Origin: Pirellulales bacterium
GTDB lineage: Bacteria; Planctomycetota; Planctomycetia; Pirellulales; JAEUIK01
NCBI GenBank assembly: GCA_019745975.1
Contig: JAIESQ010000060.1
Location: 1 to 64,000 of the forward strand
DNA length: 64,000 nt
Direction: 5' to 3'
Positions 20,903 to 55,926 of the stretch are shown piece by piece (the stretch's first letter is position 1; each line of letters opens with the position of its first letter). The position numbers and the translations under genes were made by a program. The notes under the pieces are model-generated. The model had not been told where the DNA came from, did not search any database, and worked only from the letters and a program-made list of their open reading frames with translations.

Positions 20903-21126
20903 CTCGAAACATGGCCCAAGGGCGCGGCCGGGCGCGAGCGATAGCGGGTTCCCGGCCATCAGAAAGTACCTTGGGAACACTACCCGCCCCCGCCACGCCG
21001 GTCAACAAAATGGCCGCTTCGGGGGAACTCCCGCACCGGGTGATTGCTAAACTGTATGGATCGTGTCGAACTGGCCGGCAGGCTGGCCAGGTCGAATTCG
21101 CTTCAAGTCGTCGAGCCCTGCAAGCG

Positions 21127-35233: not shown

Positions 35234-37164
35234 CGCTCCTGCAGCACGCAGGCGCTGGCGACGGTGGTGAGAATGTAGCTCACGCCGCTGCGTTTGCTGT
35301 CATCAAGACTCGGCAATTTATCCAACAGTTCGATGATCGCCCGCTGATCAAAAAACGGAAGCGCCCCCAAGGCCGGACCGCGGAGGGTGTCTTGCAACAA
35401 CTGCGTGAACCGCCCCGCGAGATCGAGCGCCGCCGGCGGCGCCAAGAATGGGTGCTTCTGCCGGCGGTAGACCGTGTCGGTGATGTACGGCTTGACCGCC
35501 TCGCGCAGCACGTACTTCTCGGTCAGGCCGCGAATCTTCAGCGACACCGGCAGCCTGGCCACGCGTTCGACCACCTTGTGATCAAGAAACGGCACCCGCC
35601 CCTCGACCGAGTGCGCCATCTCCATGCGGTCGCCGAGGAAATTAAGCAGGTAATTGCACAGCGTCGAACGCGTCCACAGATAAAGCGACTGATTGACCGG
35701 ATCGCGGCCAGCCAGTTGCCCTTCGACGTCGAACTTGTTCAGAAACACCCGGAAGGCGTCGCGCCCGGGAAACTCCGCGGCAAACTGCGGGTGAAACAGC
35801 CGGCGGTAGCGCACGGCGTTGGCGCTGCGCGTTTCCATCCACGAAGGCACGAACCCGAGCGTGTGCTGCACGGTGTCCATCGACAATGGCGACCCCGTCG
35901 GCAAGAGCAGCCCGCGCGAGACTTCGTTCTCGGCGGTGAGCTGTGCCAGCAGGCGATCGACTTCGGCCGGATCTTGACCGCCCGCGTTGTACAACAGCAT
36001 GTCGCGGCGGAAGTGCGCGTAGCCGCCGAGGATTTCGTCCGAGCCTTCGCCGGTGAGCACGACTTTGTACCCCTGGTCGCGCACCATCTGGCTGAGCATG
36101 TACTTGGCCACGCCGTGCGGATTGGCCGTCGGCACCTCGGCGTGCCACACGGCGTCGGAGAAATGATCGGCCAATTGCGTCTGCGTCACCGGGAGCGGGC
36201 AGAATTCGGCGCCGGCGCGGGCAGCCATTTCGCGGGCGACCTCTTCCTCGTTATAGGCCGCCGTATCAAAGCAGAGCGTGAACGCGCGAATCGGATCGGG
36301 ATGATGTCGGGCGGCCAGCCCCAACAGCGCGCACGAATCGATGCCGCCCGAAAGGTAGCAGCCGACCGGCACGTCGGCCCGCAGCCGCAGTCGCACGGCG
36401 TCGTCGAGCTCGGCGCGAAGCGCTTCGACGTGGTCGCGCTCGGCGGCGATGGCCTGCTCGGGGTGCTCCGGCAATCGCGTGACCTCGGCCGGCGGATAGT
36501 CGAAATCCCAGTAGCGGATCACGCGCACCTGCGTCGGCGTGGCCAACAGAAAGCAGCCGGGGGGAACCTGGTAAACGCCTTCGAACAGCGAGCGATCCTG
36601 ATCGAAGTTGACGTGCATCGACTGATAGAACGATTCGTGGTCCCACCGCGCGGGGACACCAGCCGCGAAGATGGCCTTGGCTTCCGACGCCAGATAAAGG
36701 CGCCCGCCGTGCCGCGTCCAATACAAGGGCTTGATGCCGAAGCGATCGCGCGCGGCGATCAGCGTTTGATTGGCTTCGTCCCAAAGCACAAAGGCGAATT
36801 CGCCGCGCAGCCGATGCAAGGCGCGGGTGCCGCATTCCTGGTAGAGGTGCAGCGCGATCTCGCTATCGCTCTTGGTACGCAAGCGGTGTCCGCGCTCGAC
36901 CAGTTCGCGCTGGATCGCCTCGTAACCGTAGAACTCACCATTGACGATGATGTGCAGGTCGTCTTCTTCGCTGGCGATCGGCTGGTCGCCGGTCACCAGG
37001 TCGATGATCGACAAGCGCACGTGGCCCAAGGCCACCCGGCCGTGCGGCGCCACCCAAGAGCGGCGGCCGTCAGGACCGCGGTGGTGGAGCACCTCCAGCC
37101 CGCGCTCCAGCGCCGGCGTCGAAACCGGCTCCTGCGGTGAGAAAATCGCCAGAATGCCACACAC
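35218..37164 (-). CDS. asnB: glutamine-hydrolysing asparagine synthetase
   Basis: 648 residues from a GTG at 37164, chosen because it makes C2 the N-terminal nucleophile (M-CGILAIF) as required for class II glutamine amidotransferases. An upstream start at 37188 would bury it. Glutaminase domain (about 1-210): HRGPDG, GHVRLSI, NGEFYGYE. Synthetase domain (about 240-620): the ATP-pyrophosphatase motif YLSGGIDSCALLG, then LTGEGSDEILGGYAHF and EGRVPFLDHKVVE. It transfers ammonia from glutamine to an AMP-activated aspartate, or to another carboxylate in specialised members. No natural-product neighbours, so asparagine synthesis is likeliest. Confidence 0.9.
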   Translation of the reverse strand: MCGILAIFSPQEPVSTPALERGLEVLHHRGPDGRRSWVAPHGRVALGHVRLSIIDLVTGDQPIASEEDDLHIIVNGEFYGYEAIQRELVERGHRLRTKSDSEIALHLYQECGTRALHRLRGEFAFVLWDEANQTLIAARDRFGIKPLYWTRHGGRLYLASEAKAIFAAGVPARWDHESFYQSMHVNFDQDRSLFEGVYQVPPGCFLLATPTQVRVIRYWDFDYPPAEVTRLPEHPEQAIAAERDHVEALRAELDDAVRLRLRADVPVGCYLSGGIDSCALLGLAARHHPDPIRAFTLCFDTAAYNEEEVAREMAARAGAEFCPLPVTQTQLADHFSDAVWHAEVPTANPHGVAKYMLSQMVRDQGYKVVLTGEGSDEILGGYAHFRRDMLLYNAGGQDPAEVDRLLAQLTAENEVSRGLLLPTGSPLSMDTVQHTLGFVPSWMETRSANAVRYRRLFHPQFAAEFPGRDAFRVFLNKFDVEGQLAGRDPVNQSLYLWTRSTLCNYLLNFLGDRMEMAHSVEGRVPFLDHKVVERVARLPVSLKIRGLTEKYVLREAVKPYITDTVYRRQKHPFLAPPAALDLAGRFTQLLQDTLRGPALGALPFFDQRAIIELLDKLPSLDDSKRSGVSYILTTVASACVLQERYGLG

Positions 37165-37234
37165 AACCGCTTCCCTCGCTCCGATCAACGATGAGTGCTC
37201 AATGCGAATTTCCGAGTTGAGCCCAGCCCCCGGC

Positions 37235-38725: not shown

Positions 38726-39076
38726 ATGAAGAATCTCGCCCCACTGGGGAAGATGACCGCGTTTTACATACCGTCGCACAAGCTCGACGGACCGGGGTTT
38801 GCCAGCGACGGAACGGCCCGTCAAGCGATCCACGAATTCTTGATCTCCCACTACAAGGCCTACACGCACACCCCTTCACCAGTCAAAGGCTATTGGCTCA
38901 GCGGCCGCGATGTGCTCTTGCACGACGTGATGGAGCGCTTCGAAGTTTCGTTCGATCGCGAGGAGAGTTACGGCAAATTGATCGAGTTTCTCGCCAGCCT
39001 GGCGCAGCGCCTCGACGAAGAATCGATCTATCTGACGCGAGGCGACGAGAGTTTTCTGGTTGCTCGCGCGCCGTGA
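38726..39076 (+). CDS. small conserved-looking protein, unknown function
   Basis: 116 residues; ATG at 38726 with GGGAGGG upstream. No family recognised. The protein is soluble, with mixed alpha/beta pattern: a Gly-rich N-terminal loop (KLDGPGFASDGTARQAIHEF), KGYWLSGRDVLLHDVMERFE in the middle, and a C-terminal acidic strand (SIYLTRGDESFLVARAP). Codon usage is like its neighbours and the RBS is strong, so it is probably a real gene. It is co-directional with the PIN-TRAM gene and converges with the transglutaminase-like gene (24 bp between stops). Confidence 0.6.
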   Translation: MKNLAPLGKMTAFYIPSHKLDGPGFASDGTARQAIHEFLISHYKAYTHTPSPVKGYWLSGRDVLLHDVMERFEVSFDREESYGKLIEFLASLAQRLDEESIYLTRGDESFLVARAP

Positions 39077-39100: not shown

Positions 39101-40000
39101 CTACGCATAGAGCGGATTGGGCAGTTCAGTTAGGCAAGCCACGTCGACCGAAAGCTCGATCGTGTGCTGACCGCCGCCGTGAACTACGCCTTTGATCGGG
39201 TTGACGTCGTCGTAATCGCGACCCCATGCGAGCAGGATGTGCTCGTCGGCCACCACCTGGTCATTCGTCGGATCGACATCGAGCCAGCCATTGTCGGGAT
39301 CATAGACCGACAGCCAGGCGTGCGTCGCGTCGGCCCCCGCCAAGGCATCTTTGCCGGGGGGTGGTACAGTCCTCAAATAGCCGCTGACGTAGCGTGCGGC
39401 CAGGCCGAGCGAACGCAGGCAGGCGATCTCCAAGTGCGCGAAGTCCTGACAGACGCCGCGCCGCTGGGCGAACACCTCGTCGAGTGGCGTCGAAACGGTC
39501 GTGGCCTGCGGATCGTACGTGAAGTCCTCGTGGATGCGCGTCGTCAAGTCGAGCACTGCTTCATACAAATTGGCGCCAGGTTTGAACGAGTGCTCGGCAT
39601 AGGCGGCCAGCTTCGCGCTCGGTTGGCTGTAGCGCGACGCAAACGCGAACTGATACGCCTCGAGCGATTCGCGGCTGCGGTCGGCCCGCAAGCGGTCGCG
39701 AGCTTCTTCCCACGGAACCGACGCTGAGGGCTCCGAGGGCGGTCGCAGTGCCACCTCCACGTAGTGCGTCGCGATCATCGTCAGCTCGCGATGCGGCTCC
39801 TGTACCGTGCAAAACGTCGCTCGGTTGCCAAAGTAATCGTTGTAGCCAAATCGAAGTGCCGGCTCCGGGCGAATGACGAGATCGGTCCGCCAGCAATACT
39901 GCTCGGGCAAGTCGCGCGGCGTCAGATGCGACAGGTTCTGGCAGAGTGTCACCGGTTCGCTGTAGTTATAGGTCGTCTCGTGCGAAACTCGGTAGTACAT
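39101..40000 (-). CDS. transglutaminase-like cysteine protease-fold protein (COG1305)
   Basis: 299 residues. An N-terminal bacterial transglutaminase-like beta domain (YYRVSHETTYNYSEPV, about 1-90) precedes the transglutaminase core. The catalytic triad is complete: C184 in RRGVCQDFAH, H227 in DATHAWLSVY, D243 in WLDVDPTND. DEVFAQRRGVCQDFAHLEI is typical of the family. It is predicted to hydrolyse or transfer amide bonds. It is the last gene of the minus-strand run and lies 63 bp after the ATP-grasp/alpha-E gene. Part of the amidoligase-type cluster. Confidence 0.9.
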   Translation of the reverse strand: MYYRVSHETTYNYSEPVTLCQNLSHLTPRDLPEQYCWRTDLVIRPEPALRFGYNDYFGNRATFCTVQEPHRELTMIATHYVEVALRPPSEPSASVPWEEARDRLRADRSRESLEAYQFAFASRYSQPSAKLAAYAEHSFKPGANLYEAVLDLTTRIHEDFTYDPQATTVSTPLDEVFAQRRGVCQDFAHLEIACLRSLGLAARYVSGYLRTVPPPGKDALAGADATHAWLSVYDPDNGWLDVDPTNDQVVADEHILLAWGRDYDDVNPIKGVVHGGGQHTIELSVDVACLTELPNPLYA

Positions 40001-40063
40001 GGCAAGCTCGTAGTTCTAGAACACGCGTCCGTCGTCAAACTTCGGCCCGTGCCGAATTGTTGG

Positions 40064-42703
40064 CTAAATCGGGGGTGTATCGCCCGTTCGCTCGCGCCGT
40101 CGCGGCGCGCTGCCGCCCGCGAGGTTGCGCGATATCTCCAGATGTCCGAAATAGGTTTGCGTGATCGCATTCGACAAGTCGTTCAGGGAGTCGGTGACTT
40201 GCCCGAGGAGGGCCGTCAGCTTCGGACGCCTGCCCTGATCGTCCGCCTGGCTCAACTGTCCCACGTCGGCAAGTCGCAAGGCGGTCAACGATGCCAGCAC
40301 CAAGCGCTGTTCGGAGCTGCGGCCGGGCTTCGTCGTGTCGCGCGGCAAGTGTTCAACGTCTTCGGCCAGCGCGGCCAATTGAAAGGCCACCGAGCGCGGG
40401 TTCGTCTCATCGGCCAAGAGCAAGTCGACAACCGGCGCCACTTGCAGCTTCCCCTGATAGCGGCGTCGGTAGGTCATCACGCTGTCCGCGATCTCCAACA
40501 ACGCTTCGAGCACTTGCCCGTCCTGCTCGGCGGAATCGGTCAGAGTGTTGCTTAACAGCCCGGCAGTGTGCAGGCAGCGCTCGAGTTTGCGGCCGATATC
40601 GAGGAACCGCCAGCCGTGACCGCGCGTGACGCTTTCCATTGCCAAACCGCCGAAGGCCGCCAGCGTAAGCACGGTTCGATCCAGCAACGCCAATTCATCT
40701 CCCAAGGCACGTGGATCATCGTTGGCGCGGCGGCGATTTGCGCGGCGATCGATGCCCGACGGCGACTCACTGGCTCCGAGCCGTGCCTTGTCGAGTTCGA
40801 CTAGCACCCGCGACATATCCCCCGAAATGCGATCGCGCACCACGCCCGCCAGCCGCGCTAGCGCTGCCAACACCGCGACGAGGCTCCCCGGCCGCCGCGC
40901 GTCGTGAATCACGGCCAGCAGCTCTCCTTCGGGAGCAGCCAGGCGGGCCGCGGCCCCTTCGCCGATGAAGCCCGGCAGGCACTCGCTCTGCGACGTGACG
41001 ACCTTGAGCAACGTCGGCAGCTCGGGCAGGTCGGCCGGTCGCTGCGCTTCGGTCATGCGCAGCAGCACGCTGCGCAAGAGCCGCGTCATTCCCTCGGCGC
41101 GCTCGGCGTAACGCCCCAGCCAATACAAGTTGTCGGCCATACGGCTCGGCAAATCGTGACCGCCGCGCGTCAGTTCCACCGGGGCGTCGTCGGGACGCAG
41201 CAGGCTGAAGTGGCTCACGGGGCCAGGCGAAAGCACCCACGTATCTTTGCTGCCGCCGCCGCGCTGCATCGAGACGACCATCGTGTCGGCCGACGCGCTC
41301 ACGCGCGTCAAGCCGCCGGGCATCACCGTGAACGAGTCGTGGCTGGCCGCCACGTAAGCCCGCAGCACGAGGTGCCGAGGCTCGAAGTGCTCGGCCCCGA
41401 GCACCGGCGCGGTGGCCAGTGCAATGCGCTGCTGTCCGACGAATTGATATGGGAAGGCGCGAATCTTGTCTGTCAGCCGCTGGCGTTCCTCGACCGATAA
41501 TTCGCCGCCGAAGACTGGCTCGAGATTCGTCCCCGGCAGCGCCGGTTTGATCACCAGGTCGGCGAGGTGATCGAGCACGTATTGCCGTTCGCGATCTCCA
41601 CCGCACCACCACGTGGGAGCCGACGGCAGCCGGAGCTCTTCACCCAACAGGTACCGGCACAAGCCCGGCAAAAAGGCCAACAGCGCCGGCGTTTCAAGCA
41701 GGCCGGTCCCCAAGGCGTTGGCGACCGCGACGTGCCCCGCTCGGACCGCCTGCATGAGCCCCGGCACGCCCAAGAACGAATCGGGGCGCAGCTCCAACGG
41801 GTCGCAATAGTCGTCGTCCAAGCGGCGGAAAATCACGTCGACCGGCTGCAAACCACCAAGCACCTTGAGAAACACCCGACAGTCGCGCACCGTCAGATCG
41901 TTCCCCTCGACAAGCGTGAAGCCCAGATAACGCGCCAGGTAGGCGTGCTCGAAGTAGGTTTCGTTGTAGGGACCGGGGGTGAGCAGCACGACGCGCGGGT
42001 TCTCGCGTTTGGCCGGCCCCAGGTTGTAGAGCGTTTCGCGCAGGGTGCGAAAGAACTGCGCGAGCCGCTGCACCTGACAATCGCGAAATACCTCGGGTAG
42101 CATCCGCGACAATACGATGCGGTTCTCGAGCGCGTACCCGGCGCCCGAAGGGCATTGCGTGCGGTCGCCGAGCACCCACAGATTGCCTTCGGCGTCGCGG
42201 CCAATGTTCGAGGCGAACAAGTGCAGGTTGCGCCCGCCTGGCAGGGCAATGCCATGGCACGCCCGCAGAAACGCCGCATTGCCAAAGACCAGTTCGGGCG
42301 GCATCAGCCCCGCCGTCAGGGTGTCTTGCGGGCCGTAGAGATCGGCCAGGATCGCTTCGAGCAGCCGCCCACGTTGGATCAGCCCGGTTTCGATCGTCCG
42401 AGCGTCGTCGGCCGCGATCAGTTGAGGAATCGGATCGAGCCGCCAGGGGCGATGCATGCCGCGGGCGTCGTCGTAGACGTTGTAGGTGACGCCGTTCTCA
42501 CGGATCAGCCGCTGAGCCTCGTTCCAACGATGGCCGAATCGTTCCCGTCCCAGATCGCGCAGCGAGCGAAACAGCGCATGCCAATGAGGCCGTGGCTGGC
42601 GGCTGGCTTCGAGTGCTTCGTCGAAAGCGCCGCCTGGGGGCGAATAGTCGAGCCACGTCTGTTCGGCCGACGTAGCTGCCAGCCCGGGCGAGGTCAATTC
42701 CAT
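40064..42703 (-). CDS. circularly permuted ATP-grasp protein fused to an alpha-E domain
   Basis: 879 residues. The N-terminal part (about 30-500) is the circularly permuted ATP-grasp family (COG2308): NGVTYNVYDDARGMHRPW, LFASNIGRDAEGNLWVLGDR, GLPGGRNLH-like stretch and RVVLLTPGPYNETYFEHAYL. The C-terminal part (about 505-850) is the alpha-E domain (COG2307): LPSRMADNLYWLGRYAERAE and the helical TLAAFGGLAMESVTRGHGWR, LDIGRKLERC. The two are usually separate neighbouring genes, so this is a fusion. ATP-grasp enzymes form carboxylate-amine bonds through acyl phosphate. The alpha-E role is unknown. 41 bp after the DUF2126 gene. Confidence 0.9.
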   Translation of the reverse strand: MELTSPGLAATSAEQTWLDYSPPGGAFDEALEASRQPRPHWHALFRSLRDLGRERFGHRWNEAQRLIRENGVTYNVYDDARGMHRPWRLDPIPQLIAADDARTIETGLIQRGRLLEAILADLYGPQDTLTAGLMPPELVFGNAAFLRACHGIALPGGRNLHLFASNIGRDAEGNLWVLGDRTQCPSGAGYALENRIVLSRMLPEVFRDCQVQRLAQFFRTLRETLYNLGPAKRENPRVVLLTPGPYNETYFEHAYLARYLGFTLVEGNDLTVRDCRVFLKVLGGLQPVDVIFRRLDDDYCDPLELRPDSFLGVPGLMQAVRAGHVAVANALGTGLLETPALLAFLPGLCRYLLGEELRLPSAPTWWCGGDRERQYVLDHLADLVIKPALPGTNLEPVFGGELSVEERQRLTDKIRAFPYQFVGQQRIALATAPVLGAEHFEPRHLVLRAYVAASHDSFTVMPGGLTRVSASADTMVVSMQRGGGSKDTWVLSPGPVSHFSLLRPDDAPVELTRGGHDLPSRMADNLYWLGRYAERAEGMTRLLRSVLLRMTEAQRPADLPELPTLLKVVTSQSECLPGFIGEGAAARLAAPEGELLAVIHDARRPGSLVAVLAALARLAGVVRDRISGDMSRVLVELDKARLGASESPSGIDRRANRRRANDDPRALGDELALLDRTVLTLAAFGGLAMESVTRGHGWRFLDIGRKLERCLHTAGLLSNTLTDSAEQDGQVLEALLEIADSVMTYRRRYQGKLQVAPVVDLLLADETNPRSVAFQLAALAEDVEHLPRDTTKPGRSSEQRLVLASLTALRLADVGQLSQADDQGRRPKLTALLGQVTDSLNDLSNAITQTYFGHLEISRNLAGGSAPRRRERTGDTPPI

Positions 42704-42744
42704 GGTCCTCGGTCGCCGCCTGAGATGACCGCCGCGCTGTGCAC

Positions 42745-45700
42745 TTAACGTTGCGCGGAGAGCTCAGTTTCTGTCTGTACTATACCAAAATGTTCGAGCC
42801 GCGCGAGCGAAGGGTCGCTCCCCGTGTGCGGCTTGGCATGCGCCGCCGAGCGCTCGGCGGCCAGCGGTTGCCGCAAGTCGAGCGTCAACGGGAACTCGCC
42901 ACGGCGCGGCTCGGCGACCACGGGCTGTCGCCCCGGAGTGTGGCCAAACCGAATGAAGCGATTGTAACGGCGGCTCTCCGCTTCGCGCGAATTGACCGGC
43001 AGCACCTCGTACGCCAGCCCGCCGGGATGCGACACGTGGTACTGGCAGCCGCCGATCGAACGCTCATTCCAGGTGTCGTAGATGTCGAAGACCAGCGGCG
43101 CGTCGATGCCGATCGTCGGGTGCAGGCACGAGGGCGGGCACCACGCCCGATAGCGCACTCCAGCCACGAATTCGCCGACCGTGCCGGTCGGGTGCAGCGG
43201 CACTCGGCGGCCGTTGCAGGTGACCACGTGGCGCGTGTCGATCAGGCCGCGCACTTTTACTTGGAGACGCTCCACCGACGAATCGACATAGCGAGCGGTG
43301 CCGCTGCCGGTAACCTCTTCTCCGAGCACATGCCAAGGCTCGATCGCTTGCCGCAGTTCGAACTCGACCCCCTGTTGTGCCACGCTCCCCAGCCAAGGAA
43401 AGCGAAATTCCACGTGCGGCGCGAACCACGCCTTCTCCAATGGATAGCCGGCCGCCCCCAACTCGTAGAGCAGGTCATCGAGATCCTGTTCGACGAAGTG
43501 GGGCAGCATGAAGCGATCGTGCAACTCCGTTCCCCAGCGCACCAATCGCTGGTCGTAGCCGGACTTCCAGAACCGTGCCACGAGCGCCCGAATTAGCAGT
43601 TGTTGCACCAGGCTCATCCGCGCATGGGGCGGCATCTCGAACGCCCGTAGCTCGACCAGTCCGCGGCGGCCGTCGGCCGAGTCGGGCGAGAACAATTTGT
43701 CGATGCAAAACTCGGCCCGATGTGTGTTGCCCGTGATGTCGACCAGCAGGTTGCGGAGCACGCGATCGACGATCCACGGCGGGCAATCGCCGTGATTGGG
43801 CAGTTCGGTGAAGGCCAGCTCCAACTCGTACAAAGCGTCGTTGCGCGCTTCGTCGACGCGCGGCGCCTGGCTCGTCGGCCCGATGAACAGCGACGAAAAC
43901 AAGTACGACAGCGCAGGGTGATTGTGCCAGCAAGCCACCAGACTGCGCAGCAAATCGGGACGGCGCAAGATAGGGCTGAGGGCCGGCGTGGGACCGCCGA
44001 GCACAACGTGATTGCCGCCCCCCGTGCCCGTATGGCGACCATCAAGCATAAACTTCTCGGTGCTCAACCGCGCCAGGCGGGCCTCTTCGTAGAGCACGGT
44101 CGTATTGTGAACCAGCTCGCGCCAATTGTGTGCCGGATGCACGTTGACTTCGATCACGCCGGGGTCGGGCGTGATCTGAAAGTGGTTGAGGCGATGATCG
44201 CTCGGCGGCTTGTACCCTTCGAGTAGTACCGGGGTCTCGAGCTCGGCGGCCGTCGCCTCGATCGCGGCAACCAGATCGAGGTAGTCCTCCAAACGGTCAA
44301 CCGGCGGCATGAAAGTATGCAAGCGCCCCTCGCGCGGCTCGATGCACAAGGCGGTACGCACGATTCCCGACGGCGCGCGGGGCGCCGCGCCATGGGCTCC
44401 GTTCATCGACGGCGCGCGGCGCGCACCGGGCGTGATCCCGGCGATTTGTGGGTGGCGGTCGTATCCCGGCCGTCGCGGCAGCGGCCCGCGCGGTGCCAGC
44501 GGATCGAGCGCCCAAACCTGCTGGCGTTCGTCGGGAACTTCCCAGGGAAGCGAGTCGAGTGGTAGCCGGAGGCCCATCGGCGAATCTCCGGGAATCAAGA
44601 ATACATGCTCACGGCGTAACAGCCATTGACCACTCTCCCAACGCGGCACGCCCGCATAGTACTGTCGCCGTAGCGGCAAAACGTACCCCACGACATGGTC
44701 GAGCCCTTGCTCGAACACCCGCGACAAACGCCGCCGCTCCTCGGGCTCCTCCAGCTTGTTCTCGAGCGGATCGACGTTCGACGGCAACCGCCGCTCGCGC
44801 CACAGGTAGTACCAGATGTCTTCGTAGCTGGGCAGACAAAAGTCGGGATCAACCCCCAGCCGCTCGGCTAGCGCGATCGCAAACTGCTGCGCGCACGCGC
44901 TGTTGTGGCCGTAGTTTGCGTCGGTATCGCCGACCAGCGCGGGGTTCTCCCACAGCGGCACGCCGTCGCGGCGCCAATAGCATCCGTAGACCCAGCGCGG
45001 CAGGGATTCGCCGGGATACCACTTCCCCTGTCCGTAATGCAGCAAGGCACCGGGGGCGAAGCGATCGCGCAGTCGTTTCAAGAGCACACCGGCTTGGCGT
45101 GTCTTGCCTGGGCCTAGCGCATCGAAGTTCCACTCCGGCCCGTCGCGATCGTCGATCGAAACGAAGGTCGGCTCGCCCCCCATTGTCAGGTGGACGTCGC
45201 CTTGGCGCAGCTCTTCGTCGATCCGATTGCCCAATGCGTCGATTGAGCGCCACTGCGCTTCGGTATAGGGGAGCGTGACACGGGGCGTTTCGAAGACGCG
45301 CGCCAGCGACATCTGGAAGTCGAACTTCTCGCCAATCTTGTCGATCTGGCCGTTGTCGCCGCTGGGGAGCCAGTGATAACTGCCGGTGATCGGCGCCGCG
45401 GTGATCGGGTGCGCGGCGCAAGCCAGCGGAATGTGACCTTCGCCGGCGACCAGCCCCGAGGTCGCGTCAAACCCGACCCAGCCCGCGCCCGGCAGATAGA
45501 CTTCGGTCCAGGCGTGCAGATCGGTGAAATCCTGCTCGGGCCCCGACGGTCCATCGAGCGACTTCTCATCGGCCGTCAATTGAATCAAATAGCCTGATAC
45601 GAAGCGGGCCGCGAGCCCCAACTGCCGCAACAATTGCACGAACAGCCAGGCCGTGTCGCGGCACGATCCACTGGCCAGCGCGAGCGTCTCTTCGCACGTC

Positions 45701-46200
45701 TGTACGCCGGGATCGAACCGGATTCCGTACTTGATCGACTTCTGCAAGTGACGATTGATGTCGACCAGAAAGTCGATCGTGCGCATGTCGTGTCGCTCGA
45801 ACGAGCGCGCCAGCTCCGTCAGCCGTGGGCCGGCTGGCTCACACTCGCGATACGGAGCCAGTTCGCCCGCCAACGCCGGTTCGTAAGCAAACGGGTACTT
45901 CTCCACTTCCGGCGCAATGAAAAAGTCGAACGGATTGATCGCCACCATCTCGGCCACGAGATCGACTGTGACCTTGAACTCGCGGGCAGGCTCCGGAAAG
46001 ACGATCCGCGCCTGGTAGTTGTTGTACGGGTCCTGCTGCCAGTTGAGAAAGTGTGGCTCCGGCTCGACGCGCAGCGCGTAGCTCACGATCGGCGTGCGGC
46101 AATGCGGCGCCGGCCGCAACCGAATCACGTGCGGGTCGAAGATCACCGGACGATCGTACTCGTAGCGCGTCGTATGACTGAGGGCAACTCGGATTGGCAT
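42745..46200 (-). CDS. transglutaminase-like protein with DUF2126 domain
   Basis: 1151 residues. A transglutaminase N-terminal beta domain and core (about 1-300) come first, with triad C180 (ASGSCRDTAW), H229 (TDLHAWTEVY) and D245 (VGFDATSGL). A large DUF2126 (COG4196) region follows, from about 320 to 1120. It includes QGDVHLTMGGEPTFVSIDD, GGGNHVVLGGPTPALSPIL, WHNHPALSYLFSSLFIGPT and HPGGLAYEVLPVNSREAESR. Comparative genomics has placed such proteins with ATP-grasp and alpha-E partners in putative peptide-modifying systems; biochemical function is not established. It starts 22 bp after ppc stops. Confidence 0.9.
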   Translation of the reverse strand: MPIRVALSHTTRYEYDRPVIFDPHVIRLRPAPHCRTPIVSYALRVEPEPHFLNWQQDPYNNYQARIVFPEPAREFKVTVDLVAEMVAINPFDFFIAPEVEKYPFAYEPALAGELAPYRECEPAGPRLTELARSFERHDMRTIDFLVDINRHLQKSIKYGIRFDPGVQTCEETLALASGSCRDTAWLFVQLLRQLGLAARFVSGYLIQLTADEKSLDGPSGPEQDFTDLHAWTEVYLPGAGWVGFDATSGLVAGEGHIPLACAAHPITAAPITGSYHWLPSGDNGQIDKIGEKFDFQMSLARVFETPRVTLPYTEAQWRSIDALGNRIDEELRQGDVHLTMGGEPTFVSIDDRDGPEWNFDALGPGKTRQAGVLLKRLRDRFAPGALLHYGQGKWYPGESLPRWVYGCYWRRDGVPLWENPALVGDTDANYGHNSACAQQFAIALAERLGVDPDFCLPSYEDIWYYLWRERRLPSNVDPLENKLEEPEERRRLSRVFEQGLDHVVGYVLPLRRQYYAGVPRWESGQWLLRREHVFLIPGDSPMGLRLPLDSLPWEVPDERQQVWALDPLAPRGPLPRRPGYDRHPQIAGITPGARRAPSMNGAHGAAPRAPSGIVRTALCIEPREGRLHTFMPPVDRLEDYLDLVAAIEATAAELETPVLLEGYKPPSDHRLNHFQITPDPGVIEVNVHPAHNWRELVHNTTVLYEEARLARLSTEKFMLDGRHTGTGGGNHVVLGGPTPALSPILRRPDLLRSLVACWHNHPALSYLFSSLFIGPTSQAPRVDEARNDALYELELAFTELPNHGDCPPWIVDRVLRNLLVDITGNTHRAEFCIDKLFSPDSADGRRGLVELRAFEMPPHARMSLVQQLLIRALVARFWKSGYDQRLVRWGTELHDRFMLPHFVEQDLDDLLYELGAAGYPLEKAWFAPHVEFRFPWLGSVAQQGVEFELRQAIEPWHVLGEEVTGSGTARYVDSSVERLQVKVRGLIDTRHVVTCNGRRVPLHPTGTVGEFVAGVRYRAWCPPSCLHPTIGIDAPLVFDIYDTWNERSIGGCQYHVSHPGGLAYEVLPVNSREAESRRYNRFIRFGHTPGRQPVVAEPRRGEFPLTLDLRQPLAAERSAAHAKPHTGSDPSLARLEHFGIVQTETELSAQR

Positions 46201-46222
46201 CGGTTGGTCTCTTGGTTGCGAG

Positions 46223-49060
46223 TTAACCCGTGTTCTTCAAGCCCGCCGCAATGCCGTTGATGCTCTCGAGCACGCTGGCCAACAGCTCGGAGCTGGGGTC
46301 GGCTTCGGGACTTGCCGCAGCCGCGGCGCGCAGCCGGCCCAACAGCACCAACTGAATGAAACTCAAGGCATCGACGTAAGGATTGCGTAGCTGAATCGAT
46401 CGCTTAAGCACCGGCATCTGATCCAATAACTCGGTCTCACCAGTGATCAGGCAGATCGCTTCGACCGTCCGGCGATACTCCGCGGCAATCCGACCGTACA
46501 CGCGATCGGCCAGCGCCTGGTCGGGCACCAGGTCGGCGTACAATCTGGCGATCGTCAGATCGGCCTTGGCCAGAATCATCTGAGCATTGTCGATCAGCGT
46601 TCGCCAGAAGGGCCACCGCTCGTACATCACGACAAAGGTTTCCCGTTCCTCGGGCTGCTCCGCCAGGAAGTCGAACACTGCACTACCGAACCCGTACCAC
46701 CCCGGCAGCGTGTGGCGGCTTTGCATCCAGCTAAAGACCCACGGAATCGCCCGCAGTTGCTCGATGCTTGTGTACGGCTGGCCGGCGGACTGGCCGCGGC
46801 GCGGCGGCCGCGAAGCGATCTTTAGCTGTCCGATCTCGGCAATCGGCGTGGCTTCGGCAAAGTACGTCAGAAATTCGGGTGTCTCGTAGACCAGCTCGCG
46901 ATAGTGGCGCCCAGCACGCTCGGCAAGCCGCTCGATGAGTCGCTCCCACTCGGGAGGCGGCGGCTCGGCATCGATTCCGAAGCTGCTGCGCAGCACGGCA
47001 TTGATGATCTGGTCGAGGTGTCGTTCGGCGACGCCCGGCGCGCCGTAGCGATCGGCGATCATCTCTCCTTGTTCGGTGAAGCGCAGCCGTCCCGCCACGG
47101 TGCCGGCAGGCTGTCCCAGGATGGCTCGGTTGGCCGGCCCGCCACCGCGGCCGATCGCGCCGCCGCGGCCATGAAACAGTTGAATCGTGATGCCCATCCG
47201 CCTGCCCGTGTCGACCAGCGCGCGCTGCGCCTGATAAAGTGCCCAGGCCGATTGCAGGAAGCCGGCGTCCTTGTTGCTGTCGGAGTAGCCGAGCATCACT
47301 TCCTGCACGTTGCCGCGCAGCTTGAGATGTTCGCGATAGATCGGCAGGTGGAACAATCGCTGCACTATCGTCGCGCCCTGTCGCAGCGGTTCGAGCGCCT
47401 CGAACAACGGCACGACGTTCAGCCGGCTGACCTCTTCGCTTGGGGCGAACAACCTGGCCTCGCGCGCCAACAAGAGCACGCCGAGTACATCGGCCGGTTC
47501 GGTCGCCCCGCTGATGATGTAATTCTCGATCGCCTCGGGGCATTGCTGCTCGAGCAGCGCCGCCACCGTGCGAAACGTCTGCACGACTTCGCGCGTCTCG
47601 GGCGAGAAGGGGAGCTGAACGGGCACCAGTGGCCGCTTCGCCGCCAGTTCGCTTACCAAGAGTTCGAAGCGCTCGTTGGCCGATAGCTTGCGATAGTCCT
47701 GGCAAACGCCCGCCCAAGCGAAGATCTCTTCGAGCGCGCTGCGCAACCGCCCGCTGTGTTCGCGAATGTCGAGCGTGAGCATGTGCAAGCCGAACGTATC
47801 GACCAGGCGGCGCAGGTCATGGAGCAGGCCGCTGGCCGAAGCGTCCGCACCGGCGCGCCGCAGTTCCGTCTCGATGACATCGAGGTCGGCCAGCAGATCA
47901 GCGCGGCGTAAGTAGACGGCTGCCGGCCGGCCATCGTCGTCGGCCGTCCACTGTGGTTCGCACTCGCGAACGTACTGCAGAGTACGGCGCAATCGTCCGG
48001 CAATTGCGCGGCATTTCGCGCGGAAGGGCTCGTGATCGTCGGCAAACTCGAGCTCGGGTAGCAAATCTCGGTCACGCGCCAACGATTTGCGAAACTCGTC
48101 CGACACCGGCAGCACCAGGCTCGAATGGCTCAAGCGGCGTCCAAGCTCGTCGACCCGCGCGAGATATTGCTTGATGATCGTCTCTTGTTGCAGCCGGACT
48201 GTGGCGGCCGTCACGCTGTGCGTGACATTGGGATTGCCGTCGCGGTCGCCCCCGGTCCACGAGCCAAACCGCAGGAAGCTGGCCACGGGCGTCGGCGCGC
48301 CGTCTTGCGCCATGCGGCGCAGGTACAGCTCCAGCTCGCGATAAATATGCGGCGCCACATCCCACAAGCAGCCGACCATAATCAAGCCTTGTCGCACTTC
48401 ATCGAGCACCGTCGGGCGCTTCGAGCGGACCAGCTCCGAGAGCCAGAGGCCCTCGACCTCCTCGTGAATCGCCACCAACGCGGCTTCCTGCTCGCGCGGC
48501 AACAGTTCGCGATACTCGAGTCGATCGAGCTGGCGCGCGATGGCGTCGAGCTTTTCCAGCAACGTGCGGCGCCGTGCTTCGCTCGGGTGCGCCGTGAACA
48601 CCGGCGCTACCAGCGCGTGTTCCAGCAGAGCCGCGATCTCCTTCGCTCCGACGCCGCGCTCGCGCAACTGCTCGAGCGCCGCTTCGAGACTCTCGGGCAA
48701 TGCGCGCTGCTGCTGGGCCCGCCAGCGCAGTGTTCGTAGCCGCGCCCGCTGCTCGGCCAGGTTCGTGAGGTCAAAGTAGATACTGAAAGCGCGCGTGAGG
48801 GTCCGCAGTTCCGTCAGTTCGAGCTTGCCGAGTCGATCGCGAAGGCGGCGCGCATCGTCGACCGACGGCTGCTGACGAATGTTTTTCGTGGCGGCGCGCA
48901 CTTCTTCGACCAGCGCCAGCGCTGGCGCTCCAGCCAGACGGCCGATGGTTTCGCCCAACAGGTCCCCCAGCAGGTGGATGTCGGCGCTCAAGGCGCGCTG
49001 AATGGCTTCGGCCTCGCCCGCGTCAGTCGTGGGTCGCTGGGCTGGTTCGTCGGTCGTCAT
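46223..49060 (-). CDS. ppc: phosphoenolpyruvate carboxylase
   Basis: 945 residues from the ATG at 49060; a TTG at 49099 would add 13. Catalytic landmarks are intact: the histidine motif FTAHPSEARRRT (H158), SWTGGDRDGNPNVT, MLGYSDSNKDAG, FHGRGGAIGRGGGP and the C-terminal NTG that closes the active site. It converts phosphoenolpyruvate and bicarbonate to oxaloacetate, refilling the TCA cycle. The plant-type phosphorylation serine is not apparent. The gene lies directly after pfkA and 22 bp before the DUF2126 gene, so a five-gene operon is likely. Confidence 0.95.
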   Translation of the reverse strand: MTTDEPAQRPTTDAGEAEAIQRALSADIHLLGDLLGETIGRLAGAPALALVEEVRAATKNIRQQPSVDDARRLRDRLGKLELTELRTLTRAFSIYFDLTNLAEQRARLRTLRWRAQQQRALPESLEAALEQLRERGVGAKEIAALLEHALVAPVFTAHPSEARRRTLLEKLDAIARQLDRLEYRELLPREQEAALVAIHEEVEGLWLSELVRSKRPTVLDEVRQGLIMVGCLWDVAPHIYRELELYLRRMAQDGAPTPVASFLRFGSWTGGDRDGNPNVTHSVTAATVRLQQETIIKQYLARVDELGRRLSHSSLVLPVSDEFRKSLARDRDLLPELEFADDHEPFRAKCRAIAGRLRRTLQYVRECEPQWTADDDGRPAAVYLRRADLLADLDVIETELRRAGADASASGLLHDLRRLVDTFGLHMLTLDIREHSGRLRSALEEIFAWAGVCQDYRKLSANERFELLVSELAAKRPLVPVQLPFSPETREVVQTFRTVAALLEQQCPEAIENYIISGATEPADVLGVLLLAREARLFAPSEEVSRLNVVPLFEALEPLRQGATIVQRLFHLPIYREHLKLRGNVQEVMLGYSDSNKDAGFLQSAWALYQAQRALVDTGRRMGITIQLFHGRGGAIGRGGGPANRAILGQPAGTVAGRLRFTEQGEMIADRYGAPGVAERHLDQIINAVLRSSFGIDAEPPPPEWERLIERLAERAGRHYRELVYETPEFLTYFAEATPIAEIGQLKIASRPPRRGQSAGQPYTSIEQLRAIPWVFSWMQSRHTLPGWYGFGSAVFDFLAEQPEERETFVVMYERWPFWRTLIDNAQMILAKADLTIARLYADLVPDQALADRVYGRIAAEYRRTVEAICLITGETELLDQMPVLKRSIQLRNPYVDALSFIQLVLLGRLRAAAAASPEADPSSELLASVLESINGIAAGLKNTG

Positions 49061-49108
49061 GGCCGAAGCATCGTGCAGTTCGAGAGCGGACAACGTCAAT
49101 TCCTTCGC

Positions 49109-50488
49109 TCATTCCAAGAAGCAGATGCGCTTGTTGATGTCGACGTTGATCGAGCGATAGGGCTGCGTGAGGTTGCCCGGGTGGAACAACTGCGTGCGCA
49201 CATAATCCAAATCGTCCATCCCGATGGCATTGGTGAAGATCGGGGTCAGATAATTTACGCCCACCTGCGACAGTTGCAGGGCTTCTCGGTCGTAGAACGA
49301 CGGATGCACCTGCCGTGCGTGGATCAACCCGTAGCGGTCGCGAAAATCGTTGGCATTGACCCGGTCGATGTAGAAACCGCGCTCGCGGTTCCATTGCAAG
49401 ATCGCCACCCCGTTGGCGTGCCCTTCGGTTAATAAATCAACTGCATGCCCGCCCAATTGCAATCCGTAAAACCGGTCGAAATAGACTGGCCGGCCGCCAC
49501 GCTGCGTGTGCCCCACTTTGCGAGTGAAGATCGCCGCCCGCGCCGATTCGTTGCGCCGCTTGGTAGTGAAATAGCTGTCTCCCAGGCGTTCGATGAGGAT
49601 TTGGCGAACCGCTTCGGCCGCGCCCGAGAGCACCTTGTTGCCGGCCGGATCGGTCGACGCCACTTCCGAGCCCAGCTCGCGGCCGCTCTCGTCGACGATC
49701 CCTTCGCCGCAGACGATCACCACGTTCTTTTGCAAGTCGTATACGTCGAGCACGCGCTCCACCAACCGCTCGACGTTCAACGGCGCTTCGGGCAACAGCA
49801 CGATATCAGGTTGGCCGTAGGCGGCTCCCATCGCCAGATAGCCTGAGTGACGCCCCATGACTTCGATGATCGCGATCCGGCGATGGCTTTCGGCCGTGGT
49901 GCGGATGCGCTCCACGCCGCTGGCCGATACGTACACCGCCGTCGCGAATCCCGGCGTCACATAGTTCACCATGTGTTCGAGATCAAAGCGACCGCGAGCG
50001 GGTCCGCGCGTGTAGCGATAACCGGTGCCGCCATCACACGCCTCGCGGACCCATTCGTCGGGCTCTTGCCGGTAGTTCAGCCCGAGGTCGTTATCGATCG
50101 TCTTGGGCGCCAACACCGTGGGCAGGTATTCCGACAAGGCTTGCATGCCGTTAAGCGTGCCGTCGCCGCCGATGCAGATCAGTCCTTCGACCTTCAAGCG
50201 CCGCAAGCGATCGACCACCTCGCCCAGCATCGCCTTGTCGTTGGGGTCGACGTAGTCGCGCGAGGCGCCGATCAGCGTGCCGCCGCGCATGGCGTCGAGT
50301 TCGGGAATCGGACTGAACAACGGGTTCAGCTTGACGTGCGGCACCCGCGGGTTGAACAAGCTGCTGAAGCCTTTGATGAAACCCAACACCTCGATTCGCC
50401 GCTGGCAGGCCCGCAGCGCGACTCCTTGCAACGTGGCATTGAGGGCCGGAGTGTCGCCCCCCGCGGTAAGGATGCCGATGCGGTTCAT
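49109..50488 (-). CDS. pfkA: 6-phosphofructokinase, group with PKTIDND motif
   Basis: 459 residues, longer than E. coli PfkA (320), as in the clade that includes PPi-dependent and long ATP-dependent enzymes. GILTAGGDTPALNATL binds the nucleotide. IGGDGTLNGM has glycine at the position (G110) where PPi-using enzymes have aspartate. PKTIDNDL (K129) is instead typical of the PPi-type clade. G plus K is the pattern known from ATP-dependent members such as the actinobacterial enzyme, so I predict ATP. E-M-GR-HSGYLA and GHTQRGG are also present. It is the first gene of the minus-strand run leading into ppc. Confidence 0.92.
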   Translation of the reverse strand: MNRIGILTAGGDTPALNATLQGVALRACQRRIEVLGFIKGFSSLFNPRVPHVKLNPLFSPIPELDAMRGGTLIGASRDYVDPNDKAMLGEVVDRLRRLKVEGLICIGGDGTLNGMQALSEYLPTVLAPKTIDNDLGLNYRQEPDEWVREACDGGTGYRYTRGPARGRFDLEHMVNYVTPGFATAVYVSASGVERIRTTAESHRRIAIIEVMGRHSGYLAMGAAYGQPDIVLLPEAPLNVERLVERVLDVYDLQKNVVIVCGEGIVDESGRELGSEVASTDPAGNKVLSGAAEAVRQILIERLGDSYFTTKRRNESARAAIFTRKVGHTQRGGRPVYFDRFYGLQLGGHAVDLLTEGHANGVAILQWNRERGFYIDRVNANDFRDRYGLIHARQVHPSFYDREALQLSQVGVNYLTPIFTNAIGMDDLDYVRTQLFHPGNLTQPYRSINVDINKRICFLE

Positions 50489-50885: not shown

Positions 50886-52043
50886 ATGAGAACCTACCAC
50901 TGTTCCTGCGGACAAACCGTATTTTACGAGAACAGCCTGTGCCTGGCCTGTGGAGCCGAGCTCGGCTTTTGCCCCCAGTGCCGAAGCATCGTCTCTCTGC
51001 TGCCGATTGAAGGGGGCCAGTACCGTTGCGGTAACAGCAAGTGCGGCGCAACGCTGGCCAAGTGCGCCAACTACATCGAACACAACGTCTGCAATCGTTG
51101 CGTCGCCGTCCCTGGTTTGGAAACTCTCTGCGACTGTTGCCGCTTCAACGACACGATTCCCGATCTGACAGTCCCCGGCAATAAGGAGAAGTGGTTTCGC
51201 CTCGAAACGGCCAAGCGCCGGCTGTTCTACGATCTCGGCGAACTAGGGCTCCCCTACGGCACCGAGGCCGACGGCATCGAACCGCCGCTCCGCTTCGACT
51301 TCAAGGCGGACGTTATCCCGCAAACCATCTTCTGGCGGCGCATCGGCAAAGGCGAGCGCGTCTACACGGGGCACGCTTCCGGACGCATCACAATCAACAT
51401 CCGTGAGGCCGACGACGTCGCGCGCGAAAAGGTACGCATCGACCTGGGCGAAGCGCATCGCACGCTGATCGGCCACTTCCGGCACGAGATCGGTCATTTC
51501 TATTGGGACGTGCTCGTCAAAGGACGCCGCGAGGAGGAGTGCATCGCCGTCTTCGGCGACCACAATAACCCTACGTATGCCGACGCCCTCGAAGCGCACT
51601 ACAAGAACGGCGCGGCGGCCAATTGGGCCCAAAACTACATCAGCCCCTACGCCACCATGCACCCCTGGGAGGATTTCGCCGAAAGCTGGGCCACGTACCT
51701 CGACATGGCCAGCGTGCTCGATACGGCCGAACACGCCGGCTTCGGCGGCGCCACGCGGATGGTCTACGCCGAGATCGACCCGATGATCGCCCGCTACCAG
51801 GAGCTGGGCATTACGCTCAACGAGTTCAATCGCGGCATGGGCCTCTTGGACGTCGTGCCCGAAGTCTTCGTCCCCGCGGTCGTCGACAAACTGCGCTACA
51901 TTCACCGCCTGGTGCGGCTCGGGCGGGGCGAGAACCGCGCGATCTATCCCGACGGCCCGCCACCAGCGTTGGCCGAGCCATCGGGCGTTGAATCGCAACC
52001 GGCCGCGATTGCCCCGCAACCAGCCGTGGCGGCCGCTACTTGA
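50886..52043 (+). CDS. putative zinc-binding metallopeptidase (COG4307/DUF2248 type)
   Basis: 385 residues. The N-terminal 90 residues are a cysteine-rich zinc-ribbon block: pairs C6/C8, C19/C22, C29/C32, C48/C53, C60, C69/C72 and C82/C84/C85. The catalytic zincin motif is HEIGHFYWD with H200, E201 and H204, and the third ligand probably lies in [15 protein letters not shown] (about 254-268). This layout matches the COG4307 family of uncharacterised zinc peptidases. The C-terminal 40 residues are Ala/Pro-rich and disordered. No signal peptide. It overlaps the converging glnN gene by 8 bp. Confidence 0.85.
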
Positions 52044-54294
52044 TGAACAGCATCTCCTGGTAGGTCGGCAGCGGCCAGATGTCGTCGGCGACCATTCCTT
52101 CGAGTTCGTCGGCGTACTTGCGCACTTCGGCCATCGCCGGCACCACCTCTTCGCAGAAGTGCCGCGCCTCGGCTTCTAGACTGTCGGCGTCGTGATGCGC
52201 CAGAGTTTTGTCGAGCACGGCGATCGCGTCCTGCAGGTTCTTCACCAACTCGGTGATCTTGTCGAGCGTATCGGTGTCGAACTCGTAACCCACCAGCTTG
52301 AGATTGGCACACGTCGAGGCCAGCTCGTTCTGGTAGCGGATCGCCGCCGGGAAGATCAGCGTCCGCGCCATTTCCATCGTTTGCAGACCCTCGACGCGGA
52401 CCGTCTTGCAATACTGCTCGAGATAGATATCCAAGCGGCTTTGCAGCTCGCGGGTCGACAGCACGCCGTACTTGGTAAATAGCGCGTTGATATCCGGCTT
52501 GGCCAGCATCGGCAGCGCGTCGGTCGTCGTCTTCAAGTTCAACAGCCCGCGGGCGGCCGCTTCCTTGTGCCACGCGGCTGAGTAGCCGTCGCCATTGAAG
52601 ATGATCGCCTCGCACTCGTTGATGATCTCGGTCAAGAGCTTCTGCACGGCCGCGTGCAGACTGTCGGCGTCGCTGGCCATCGCCGCCTCGAGCTTGGTGG
52701 CGCAATAGTCGAGCGACTCGCAAACGATGGTGTTCATCGCCACCAGCGGCCCGGCGATCGATTGGTTGGCGCCCACCGCCCGGAACTCGAAACGATTGCC
52801 TGTGAAAGCAAACGGGCTCGTGCGGTTGCGGTCGCCGGCGTCCTTGGGCAGCGGCGGCAGCACGTCGACCCCGACGGTCAGCGTTCCCTTGGCGAGCGAG
52901 GAGTTCGCGCCCCCCGACTTCTTGATCTGCTGAAATACGTCGGTCAATTGATCGCCGAGGAAGATCGAGATGATCGCCGGCGGGGCCTCGTTCGCGCCCA
53001 GCCGATGGTCGTTGCCGGCCGATGCCACCACGGCTCGCAACAGTCCTTGATACTTGAAGACCGCGCGGATCACCGCCGCGCAGAACACGAGAAACTGGGC
53101 GTTCGTGTGCGGCGTATCGCCGGGGTCGAGCAGGTTTCCCTGGCTCTTGCTTCCCAGCGACCAGTTGACGTGCTTGCCCGACCCGTTCACGCCGGCGAAC
53201 GGCTTCTCGTGCGTCAGGCAGGCCATACCGTACTTCTCGGCCACGCGCTTCAACGTGGTCATCATCAACTGTTGGTGATCGGTTGCCAAATTGGCCGATT
53301 CGAACACCGGGGCAATCTCGTACTGGCCAGGCGCGACTTCGTTGTGCCGCGTCTTCACCGGAATGCCCAGCTTGTACAACTCGCGCTCGACTTCGAGCAT
53401 GAAGGCCAATACGCGCTCGGGGATCGCGCCGAAGTAGTGATCCTCGAATTCCTGCCCCTTCGGCGGCTTGGCGCCGAACAGCGTGCGACCGCAAGTGAAC
53501 AGGTCCGGACGCGAGAAGTAAAAGTGCCGGTCGACGAGGAAATACTCCTGCTCGGGCCCGGCCGTCGAAGCGACAAACGCCTCGTCGTCGTGGCCGAACA
53601 ACTTCAAGATCCGATTCGCTTGCTTGTTCAGTGCCTGCATCGACCGCAGCACGGGCGTCTTCTTGTCGAGCGCTTCGCCCGTCCACGAAACAAATGCCGT
53701 CGGAATGCACAGCGTTGTGCCGTTCGGGTTTTCGAGAATGTAGGCCGGGCTGGTCACGTCCCAGATCGTGTAGCCGCGCGCTTCGAAGGTCGCGCGAATG
53801 CCGCCGGTCGGGAAGCTCGAACCATCGGGTTCGCCCTGAATGAGTTGCTTGCCGCTGAACTCGGCAATCGCTCCCCCGTCGCCGTCGGGCGACAAAAAGC
53901 TGTCGTGCTTCTCGGCGGTTAACCCCGTCAGCGGGTAGAACACGTGCGCGTAGTGCGTGGCGCCCTTTTCGATCGCCCAGTCCTTCATGGCCGATGCGAC
54001 AATGTCGGCGATCGATGGATCGAGCTTGGCACCCGATTCGATCGTCTTCATCACCGACTTGTACACCGGCTTCGGCAGCCGGGCTTTCATGACGGCCGAG
54101 CCGAAGACGTTCGAGCTGAACAGCTCATGAGCGGGCGTTTCGTTGAAGTTCAAGGGAGGAGAGATCGGTCGCCAGTTGGTTACCGCCGAGATCGCGGCCA
54201 TCCGCGCCGACATGCTGGTGGGCGCATTGCGACTACCACCCGCGGCTGCCGCCCCATTGGCCGATCCAATACCTGTCGAAAAGCTCGTGCTCAC
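52036..54294 (-). CDS. glnN: glutamine synthetase type III
   Basis: 752 residues, the length of type III enzymes and much longer than GSI (about 470). GTG start at 54294 with GAGGGA upstream. Hallmarks of [22 protein letters not shown] near the N-terminus, [87 protein letters not shown] and [17 protein letters not shown] (catalytic and metal or ammonium-site motifs). It condenses glutamate and ammonia with ATP. Glutamine would feed the asparagine synthetase encoded at 35218. Regulation is not evident; the promoter should lie in the repeat-rich gap upstream. Confidence 0.95.
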
Positions 54295-55670: not shown

Positions 55671-55818
55671 GTAGCCGTGGGTGCAACCCACGGACGATTC
55701 ACGCGCTACGATCGAAGCCGCGTAGCGGCGACAGCCACCTCGTTGAACGAAGGATGCCGCCGCTGCGCGGCTCTGGTACGTGATGTCACCAATACCGTGG
55801 GCTCGCGCCCACGGCTAG
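55671..55818. repeat. GTAG-type palindrome pair (BIME-like)
   Basis: GTAG followed by CCGTGGG-TGCAA-CCCACGG (55671-55693) faces an inverted copy CCGTGGG-CTCGCG-CCCACGG followed by CTAG (about 55795-55818). Between them are further GCCGCGTAGCGGC-like palindromes. The GTAG tetranucleotide next to a hairpin, in inverted pairs, is the layout of REP sequences in enterobacteria. Confidence 0.8.
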
Positions 55819-55926
55819 GTGATTTCGCCGCGTCGCGGCTAAATGCGGAAGCGCACGATCCGGCGTGTAATTGCCACCGTGGTTCTCCAACCGGAATTCT
55901 CGATTCGCCACCGCTAGAATGGCGCT

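Follow-up and report, generated by a model that had tools for sequence, protein, structure and literature searches.

A phosphofructokinase and PEP carboxylase gene pair embedded in a DUF2126-type amidoligase cluster of a Pirellulales bacterium, with recurrent linkage in other lineages

Results

A run of five genes joins a pfk-ppc pair to an amidoligase module

Within the window (the whole 64,000-nucleotide stretch of DNA analysed here), open reading frame calls define a minus-strand run of five genes spanning 50488-39101, in the order pfk, ppc, TG-DUF2126, a fusion of circularly permuted (CP) ATP-grasp with Alpha-E, and a stand-alone transglutaminase-like (TG) gene. These genes and the features that flank them upstream are as follows.

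49109..50488, minus strand: 6-phosphofructokinase (PFK), 459 aa; first gene of the run and upstream half of the pfk-ppc pair; Pfam PF00365, 8.9e-59
46223..49099, minus strand: phosphoenolpyruvate carboxylase (PPC), 958 aa; Pfam PF00311 and NCBIfam NF000584, above cut-off
42745..46200, minus strand: TG-DUF2126, 1151 aa; transglutaminase-like domain fused to a DUF2126 amidoligase domain; PF08379, PF01841, PF09899
40064..42703, minus strand: CP-ATPgrasp + Alpha-E, 879 aa; circularly permuted ATP-grasp fused to an Alpha-E helical domain; PF14403 (1.6e-152), PF04174, PF04168
39101..40000, minus strand: stand-alone TG (transglutaminase-like), 299 aa; PF08379, PF01841
50886..52043, plus strand: Peptidase_Mx zinc-ribbon metallopeptidase, divergent from pfk; PF15887, 3.4e-84
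52036..54294, minus strand: glutamine synthetase type III (GSIII), beside Peptidase_Mx; PF12437, PF00120, PF18318
54417..54432, minus strand: perfect sigma-54 (-24/-12) promoter match, TGGCACGCCGGTTGCT, 122 bp upstream of GSIII

Every domain in the run is supported by Pfam (E-values from 0 to 1e-17), and open reading frames and domains agree on the five-gene run, and on the three-gene amidoligase module within it, that a preliminary description had proposed. PFK carries the motifs GGDGT and PKTIDND and matches PFK structures in the PDB, while the start of PPC was called at a TTG codon, with its Pfam match beginning at residue 37. TG-DUF2126 and the stand-alone TG both contain Bact_transglu_N and Transglut_core domains, the latter protein matching PDB entries 3isr and 6g49, and their catalytic triads, earlier described as complete, are indeed intact: C184/H227/D243 of the stand-alone TG is invariant in 79/79 homologues, and C180/H229/D245 of TG-DUF2126 in 129/129.

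From pfk to TG the intergenic gaps measure 9, 22, 41 and 63 nt, so that the spacing of about 20-65 bp given previously is accurate for three junctions and too wide for pfk/ppc, and the spacing is operon-like throughout. From it we infer that the five genes are probably cotranscribed, with spacing as the sole basis because consensus scans are weak evidence in a genome of 64% GC. Such scans of the five-gene run found no convincing terminator at the junctions and no sigma-70 promoter-like site between genes; the run holds 4 terminator-like minus-strand sites (vs. 10.4 in shuffled sequence), all of them inside open reading frames. No riboswitch or other RNA was found within the run.

The amidoligase module is widespread and moves often

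The module formed by the last three genes is already known as an uncharacterised bacterial peptide-ligase cluster: the DUF2126/CP-ATP-grasp/Alpha-E/TG amidoligase module of Iyer et al. 2009, as relayed in PMC6376114, has the same domains in the same order (TG-DUF2126, ATP-grasp-Alpha-E, TG) as the run. In the literature that we searched we found no substrate or product for it. DUF2126 is present in 210/398 genomes of the class, i.e., about half of those sampled, and the module extends to several other phyla.

We compared the locus with the surroundings of DUF2126 in 30 further genomes from its own family and order, some of these loci ending at contig ends, and with 69 named GTDB loci. The gene order of the trio is retained in nearly all planctomycete loci of sufficient length, many of which have an additional ATP-grasp/Alpha-E copy, unfused, immediately upstream. 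The amidoligase phylogeny is strongly at odds with taxonomy, with the same-family genomes G002-G005 scattered over different clades (L102-L130, L222-L261), from which we conclude that the module moves often by horizontal transfer. The genome studied here has a further ATP-grasp/Alpha-E/TG locus of the unfused form on another of its contigs (C165, 2500-7300; L134), with an IS200-like transposase nearby and no proteasome-family gene in reach.

Neither pfk nor ppc lies near the module in any of the 30 relative loci, including those of all four same-family genomes with DUF2126. We accordingly reject an ancestral conserved five-gene operon, and the linkage, which the preliminary description had called notable and proposed to check by gene order in other planctomycetes, is not a feature of the module there.

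pfk-ppc is a conserved pair in its own right

PFK feeds glycolysis, and PPC converts PEP to oxaloacetate, which supplies the carbon backbone of aspartate and, by way of the TCA cycle, of glutamate. Among the 398 genomes of the class, a PFK of the run's type occurs in 146 and PPC in 158. In nine other genomes (G340, G404, G306, G287, G162, G072, G024, G049 and G414) PFK immediately precedes PPC on one strand, the paired orthologues being 74-82% (PFK) and about 59-71% (PPC) identical to the proteins of the run. Order and strand are thus those of the run, but elsewhere the pair is usually solitary: at four of the nine (L135, L136, L150, L154) amidoligase genes are clearly absent from the surrounding 5 kb. 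At three others (G404, G162, G414) the contig ends just upstream of pfk.

The window's PFK falls in a 13-row clade with support of 100/99, and the window is sister to G340 in both the PFK and the PPC tree (95/93 and 86/90), the closest relative of its PPC being the pfk-paired ppc of that genome. Since both trees place the window beside G340, pfk-ppc has travelled as a unit. Same-family genomes lack the pair; they have only distant PFKs, and a single PPC was found among them, in G003, at 37% identity. Given a trio that lacks pfk and ppc in all relative loci and a pfk-ppc that forms its own pair, the linkage between them is not ancestral.

The pair is embedded in the cluster

Peptidase_Mx, which diverges from pfk, is also a neighbour of the module in seven further loci, drawn from Planctomycetes and Proteobacteria. 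Among relative genomes, strong matches to it occur in 18/32 of those that have DUF2126 and in 1/26 of those that lack it (Fisher p = 1.5e-5, uncorrected for kinship), and in the lone DUF2126-negative genome that has it (G009) the gene sits beside an Alpha-E gene. Peptidase_Mx is therefore a recurrent partner of the amidoligase module, and because it stands on the far side of pfk-ppc, the pair is embedded in the amidoligase cluster, between Peptidase_Mx and the ligases, which distinguishes the run from the known module. Two conserved modules with a single direction of transcription make up this mosaic run.

Both the amidoligase genes and pfk-ppc of the window group with other families rather than with copies from their own, which suggests old horizontal transfer, and their nearest relatives differ (G340 for pfk-ppc, G374/G404 for the ligases). 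Tetranucleotide frequencies of the run correlate at r = 0.64-0.77 with other sequence of its own genome vs. 0.37-0.52 with the families that its genes resemble, and this likeness to the rest of the genome indicates a transfer that was not recent and a run that is no obvious contaminant. A foreign or chimeric contig is unlikely and unsupported, as the signature fits the genome itself, and a recent transfer with atypical GC was rejected because GC is flat across the run.

Linkage of pfk or ppc with amidoligase genes recurs

Among the matches listed, about 150 per search, with coordinates compared by eye, DUF2126 and a PFK of the run's type adjoin in just two genomes, that of the window and G306 (L152), where the amidoligase trio is divergent from pfk-ppc. 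Other adjacencies take other forms. In G072 (L156), a genome in which no DUF2126 was found, ppc stands tail-to-tail with TG and ATP-grasp-Alpha-E; in L032, a Verrucomicrobiota MAG, pfk and TG-DUF2126 share one direction, pfk ending 64 nt ahead of TG-DUF2126 with no intervening ppc; and in genus g119 (L033, L036; also G121, G325) ppc is convergent with the trio, about 20 bp from TG. The g119 loci additionally show an extra ATP-grasp copy upstream.

In the TG-DUF2126 and ATP-grasp-Alpha-E trees, the window groups with G374/G404 inside a clade drawn from families f21/f23. G306 joins further f22 genomes, G072 joins G177/G144, and L032 falls among Verrucomicrobiota. As these genes belong to different clades, the adjacencies, which occur in three or more lineages besides the window, appear to be of separate origin. 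Amidoligase genes adjoin two of the nine pfk-ppc pairs (G306 and G072), where chance would place 0.03 within 5 kb; the binomial p is about 4e-4, rising to about 0.03 when the two are conservatively treated as one event. The count is unbiased in that both genomes were retrieved via pfk alone. Around pfk-ppc, amidoligase genes are also the only family common to many loci, other shared families being confined to two loci each, mostly in close relatives.

The preliminary description had held that the linkage would be accidental if related genomes carried the amidoligase genes without pfk or ppc. The lack of conservation is borne out, yet accident is too simple an account given recurrences in differing orientations beside amidoligase genes of different clades. 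Its outline of the module was likewise sound as regards the trio, while it missed the standing of pfk-ppc as a pair, the Peptidase_Mx partner and the literature on nitrogen limitation. We did not find the repeated juxtaposition, or the embedding, described in the literature searched, the coverage of which was limited.

Nitrogen-related genes surround the run

In one other genus (L239, L254), too, GSIII is a neighbour of the module, and here it may belong to a shared nitrogen context. The sigma-54 match upstream of it is unique in the window at a tolerance of one mismatch; no such site there precedes pfk, ppc or TG-DUF2126, the best upstream of pfk having 4 mismatches. Elsewhere, 9/122 upstream regions of TG-DUF2126 contain a site with at most 2 mismatches vs. 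2/122 on the reverse strand, a modest enrichment. Beyond the downstream end of the run, separated from it by two plus-strand genes, an asparagine-synthase-type glutamine amidotransferase gene (GATase_7 + Asn_synthase; 35218-37188, minus strand) adds to the nitrogen-rich neighbourhood. AsnB was rejected as a partner of the module, since it occurs near it in only one other locus, at 31% identity.

Published data place homologous clusters under nitrogen control. In Burkholderia cenocepacia H111, according to the excerpted text of PMC5491218, the cluster I35_5080-5083 encodes DUF404/407, DUF403, TG-like and large TG-like (presumably DUF2126-form) proteins like those of the run, is sigma-54 dependent and falls 6-9-fold in an ntrC mutant. 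It differs from the run, for which no upstream sigma-54 site was found, in this NtrC/sigma-54 control, and pfk and ppc go unmentioned in that excerpt. The Anbu-type genes PP_2686-2688 of Pseudomonas putida rise 11-37-fold under nitrogen limitation (PMC7801951), and in marine metagenomes the domains of the module track those of urea metabolism (PMC3597751).

Fold comparisons fit two putative ligases

The ATP-grasp part resembles PDB 3n6x (E = 2.8e-97), annotated as a putative glutathionylspermidine synthase. No PDB sequence match was found for the DUF2126 domain, only the adjoining transglutaminase part being matched, and no PDB fold match for Alpha-E. With the AlphaFold model of DUF2126 (mean pLDDT 83.7) as query, Foldseek against the PDB gave a top 50 made up almost entirely of GmaS, YbdK, glutamine synthetases and Dop; the similarity is weak, with a best E-value of 3.4e-3, probabilities of 0.77-0.99 for the top nine and low TM-scores. 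GmaS is gamma-glutamylmethylamide synthetase and Dop is depupylase. On this modelled structure, the fold points weakly to the glutamine-synthetase/GCS superfamily, and together with the likeness to 3n6x it fits a pair of carboxylate-amine ligases, ATP-grasp and DUF2126.

Discussion

The reading that we favour, to which we give about even credence, is that the cluster constitutes a nitrogen-stress amide-ligase/hydrolase module that in this lineage has been coupled to carbon supply. One component would be the DUF2126-type set, comprising a probable GS/GCS-fold ligase with a TG-like domain, ATP-grasp-Alpha-E, a second TG and Peptidase_Mx, and would most likely form and break amide or isopeptide linkages, on proteins or a small peptide, in response to nitrogen limitation. 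Its two predicted ATP-dependent ligases would activate carboxylates for coupling to amines; the cysteine (TG-like) and zinc (Peptidase_Mx) enzymes would cut or transfer amide bonds. The other component, pfk-ppc, would direct hexose carbon to PEP and on to oxaloacetate, the precursor of aspartate and glutamate; given the position of the pair between Peptidase_Mx and the ligases, this supply of carbon skeletons and the ligases would be co-expressed. Points in favour are the gene identities and intact triads, the weak fold similarity, the Peptidase_Mx partnership, the recurrent linkage, the nitrogen control of homologues, GSIII with its sigma-54 site, the asparagine-synthase-type gene and the roles of PFK and PPC. 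The scarcity of recurrences, the bare module of all 30 relatives, the pfk-ppc pairs that have no amidoligase genes nearby, the missing sigma-54 site ahead of the run and the weak Foldseek matches tell against it. A bolder version, in which amidoligase clusters repeatedly captured pfk/ppc as the dedicated carbon supply of a nitrogen-stress peptide or storage pathway whose product derives from PEP/oxaloacetate-derived amino acids such as aspartate and glutamate, strikes us as rather unlikely.

Two unrelated mobile modules might instead simply abut, with read-through and no functional coupling. That almost all relatives lack the linkage, that the amidoligase genes move as often as their scatter across same-family genomes implies, and that pfk-ppc also occurs by itself would all be expected under such chance juxtaposition, and we regard it as a tenable if doubtful account; the apparently independent recurrences in G306, G072, L032 and g119, and the singular prevalence of amidoligase genes around pfk-ppc, speak against it. 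An Anbu-type system of protein tagging or peptide turnover, in which ligases tag proteins, an Anbu particle or the TG-like enzymes remove or degrade the tag, and pfk-ppc is incidental, would account for the homologous ATP-grasp, Alpha-E and TG domains shared with the Anbu operon (PMC6376114, PMC5666114), and in several relatives weak proteasome-family matches do lie beside stand-alone Alpha-E genes (e.g., G005 C45, G009 C76, G039 C48, G023 C13). The module here, however, is of the fusion/DUF2126 form, whereas ATP-grasp and Alpha-E are separate genes in the Anbu-type form, and no Anbu (proteasome-type) subunit was found in or near the cluster or elsewhere in the genome, its only proteasome-family gene found encoding a 188-aa HslV-like protein on another contig (C162); we think this account improbable.

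Least plausible of all, to our minds, is a RiPP-like pathway, with a small precursor peptide of ribosomal origin that is exported after modification by the ligases. ATP-grasp and transglutaminase-like enzymes are present in peptide modification systems, but the gaps of at most 63 nt within the trio leave no space for a precursor, and the search for small precursor peptides that had been suggested earlier brought up no recurring family among open reading frames of at least 80 aa in 74 module loci. The sole small open reading frame nearby (116 aa; 38726-39076, plus strand), just downstream of the run, matches nothing in the neighbouring loci searched.

The recurrent and apparently independent PPC/PFK link and the nitrogen-limitation control known from Proteobacteria together narrow the search for a product, for which the substrates may be of amino-acid type, to aspartate- or glutamate-derived amides under nitrogen stress. 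The recurrent linkage hints that the pathways work together, and natural variants with pfk-ppc in or out of the cluster suit tests of coupling.

Two further features of the window lie outside the cluster: an Acido-Lenti-1 RNA (RF01687, an Rfam sRNA family; 55795-55840, plus strand; 42.4 bits, E = 3.1e-6) and a gene for a 535-aa protein with a Peptidase C13 (legumain-type) domain match (19373-20980, minus strand).
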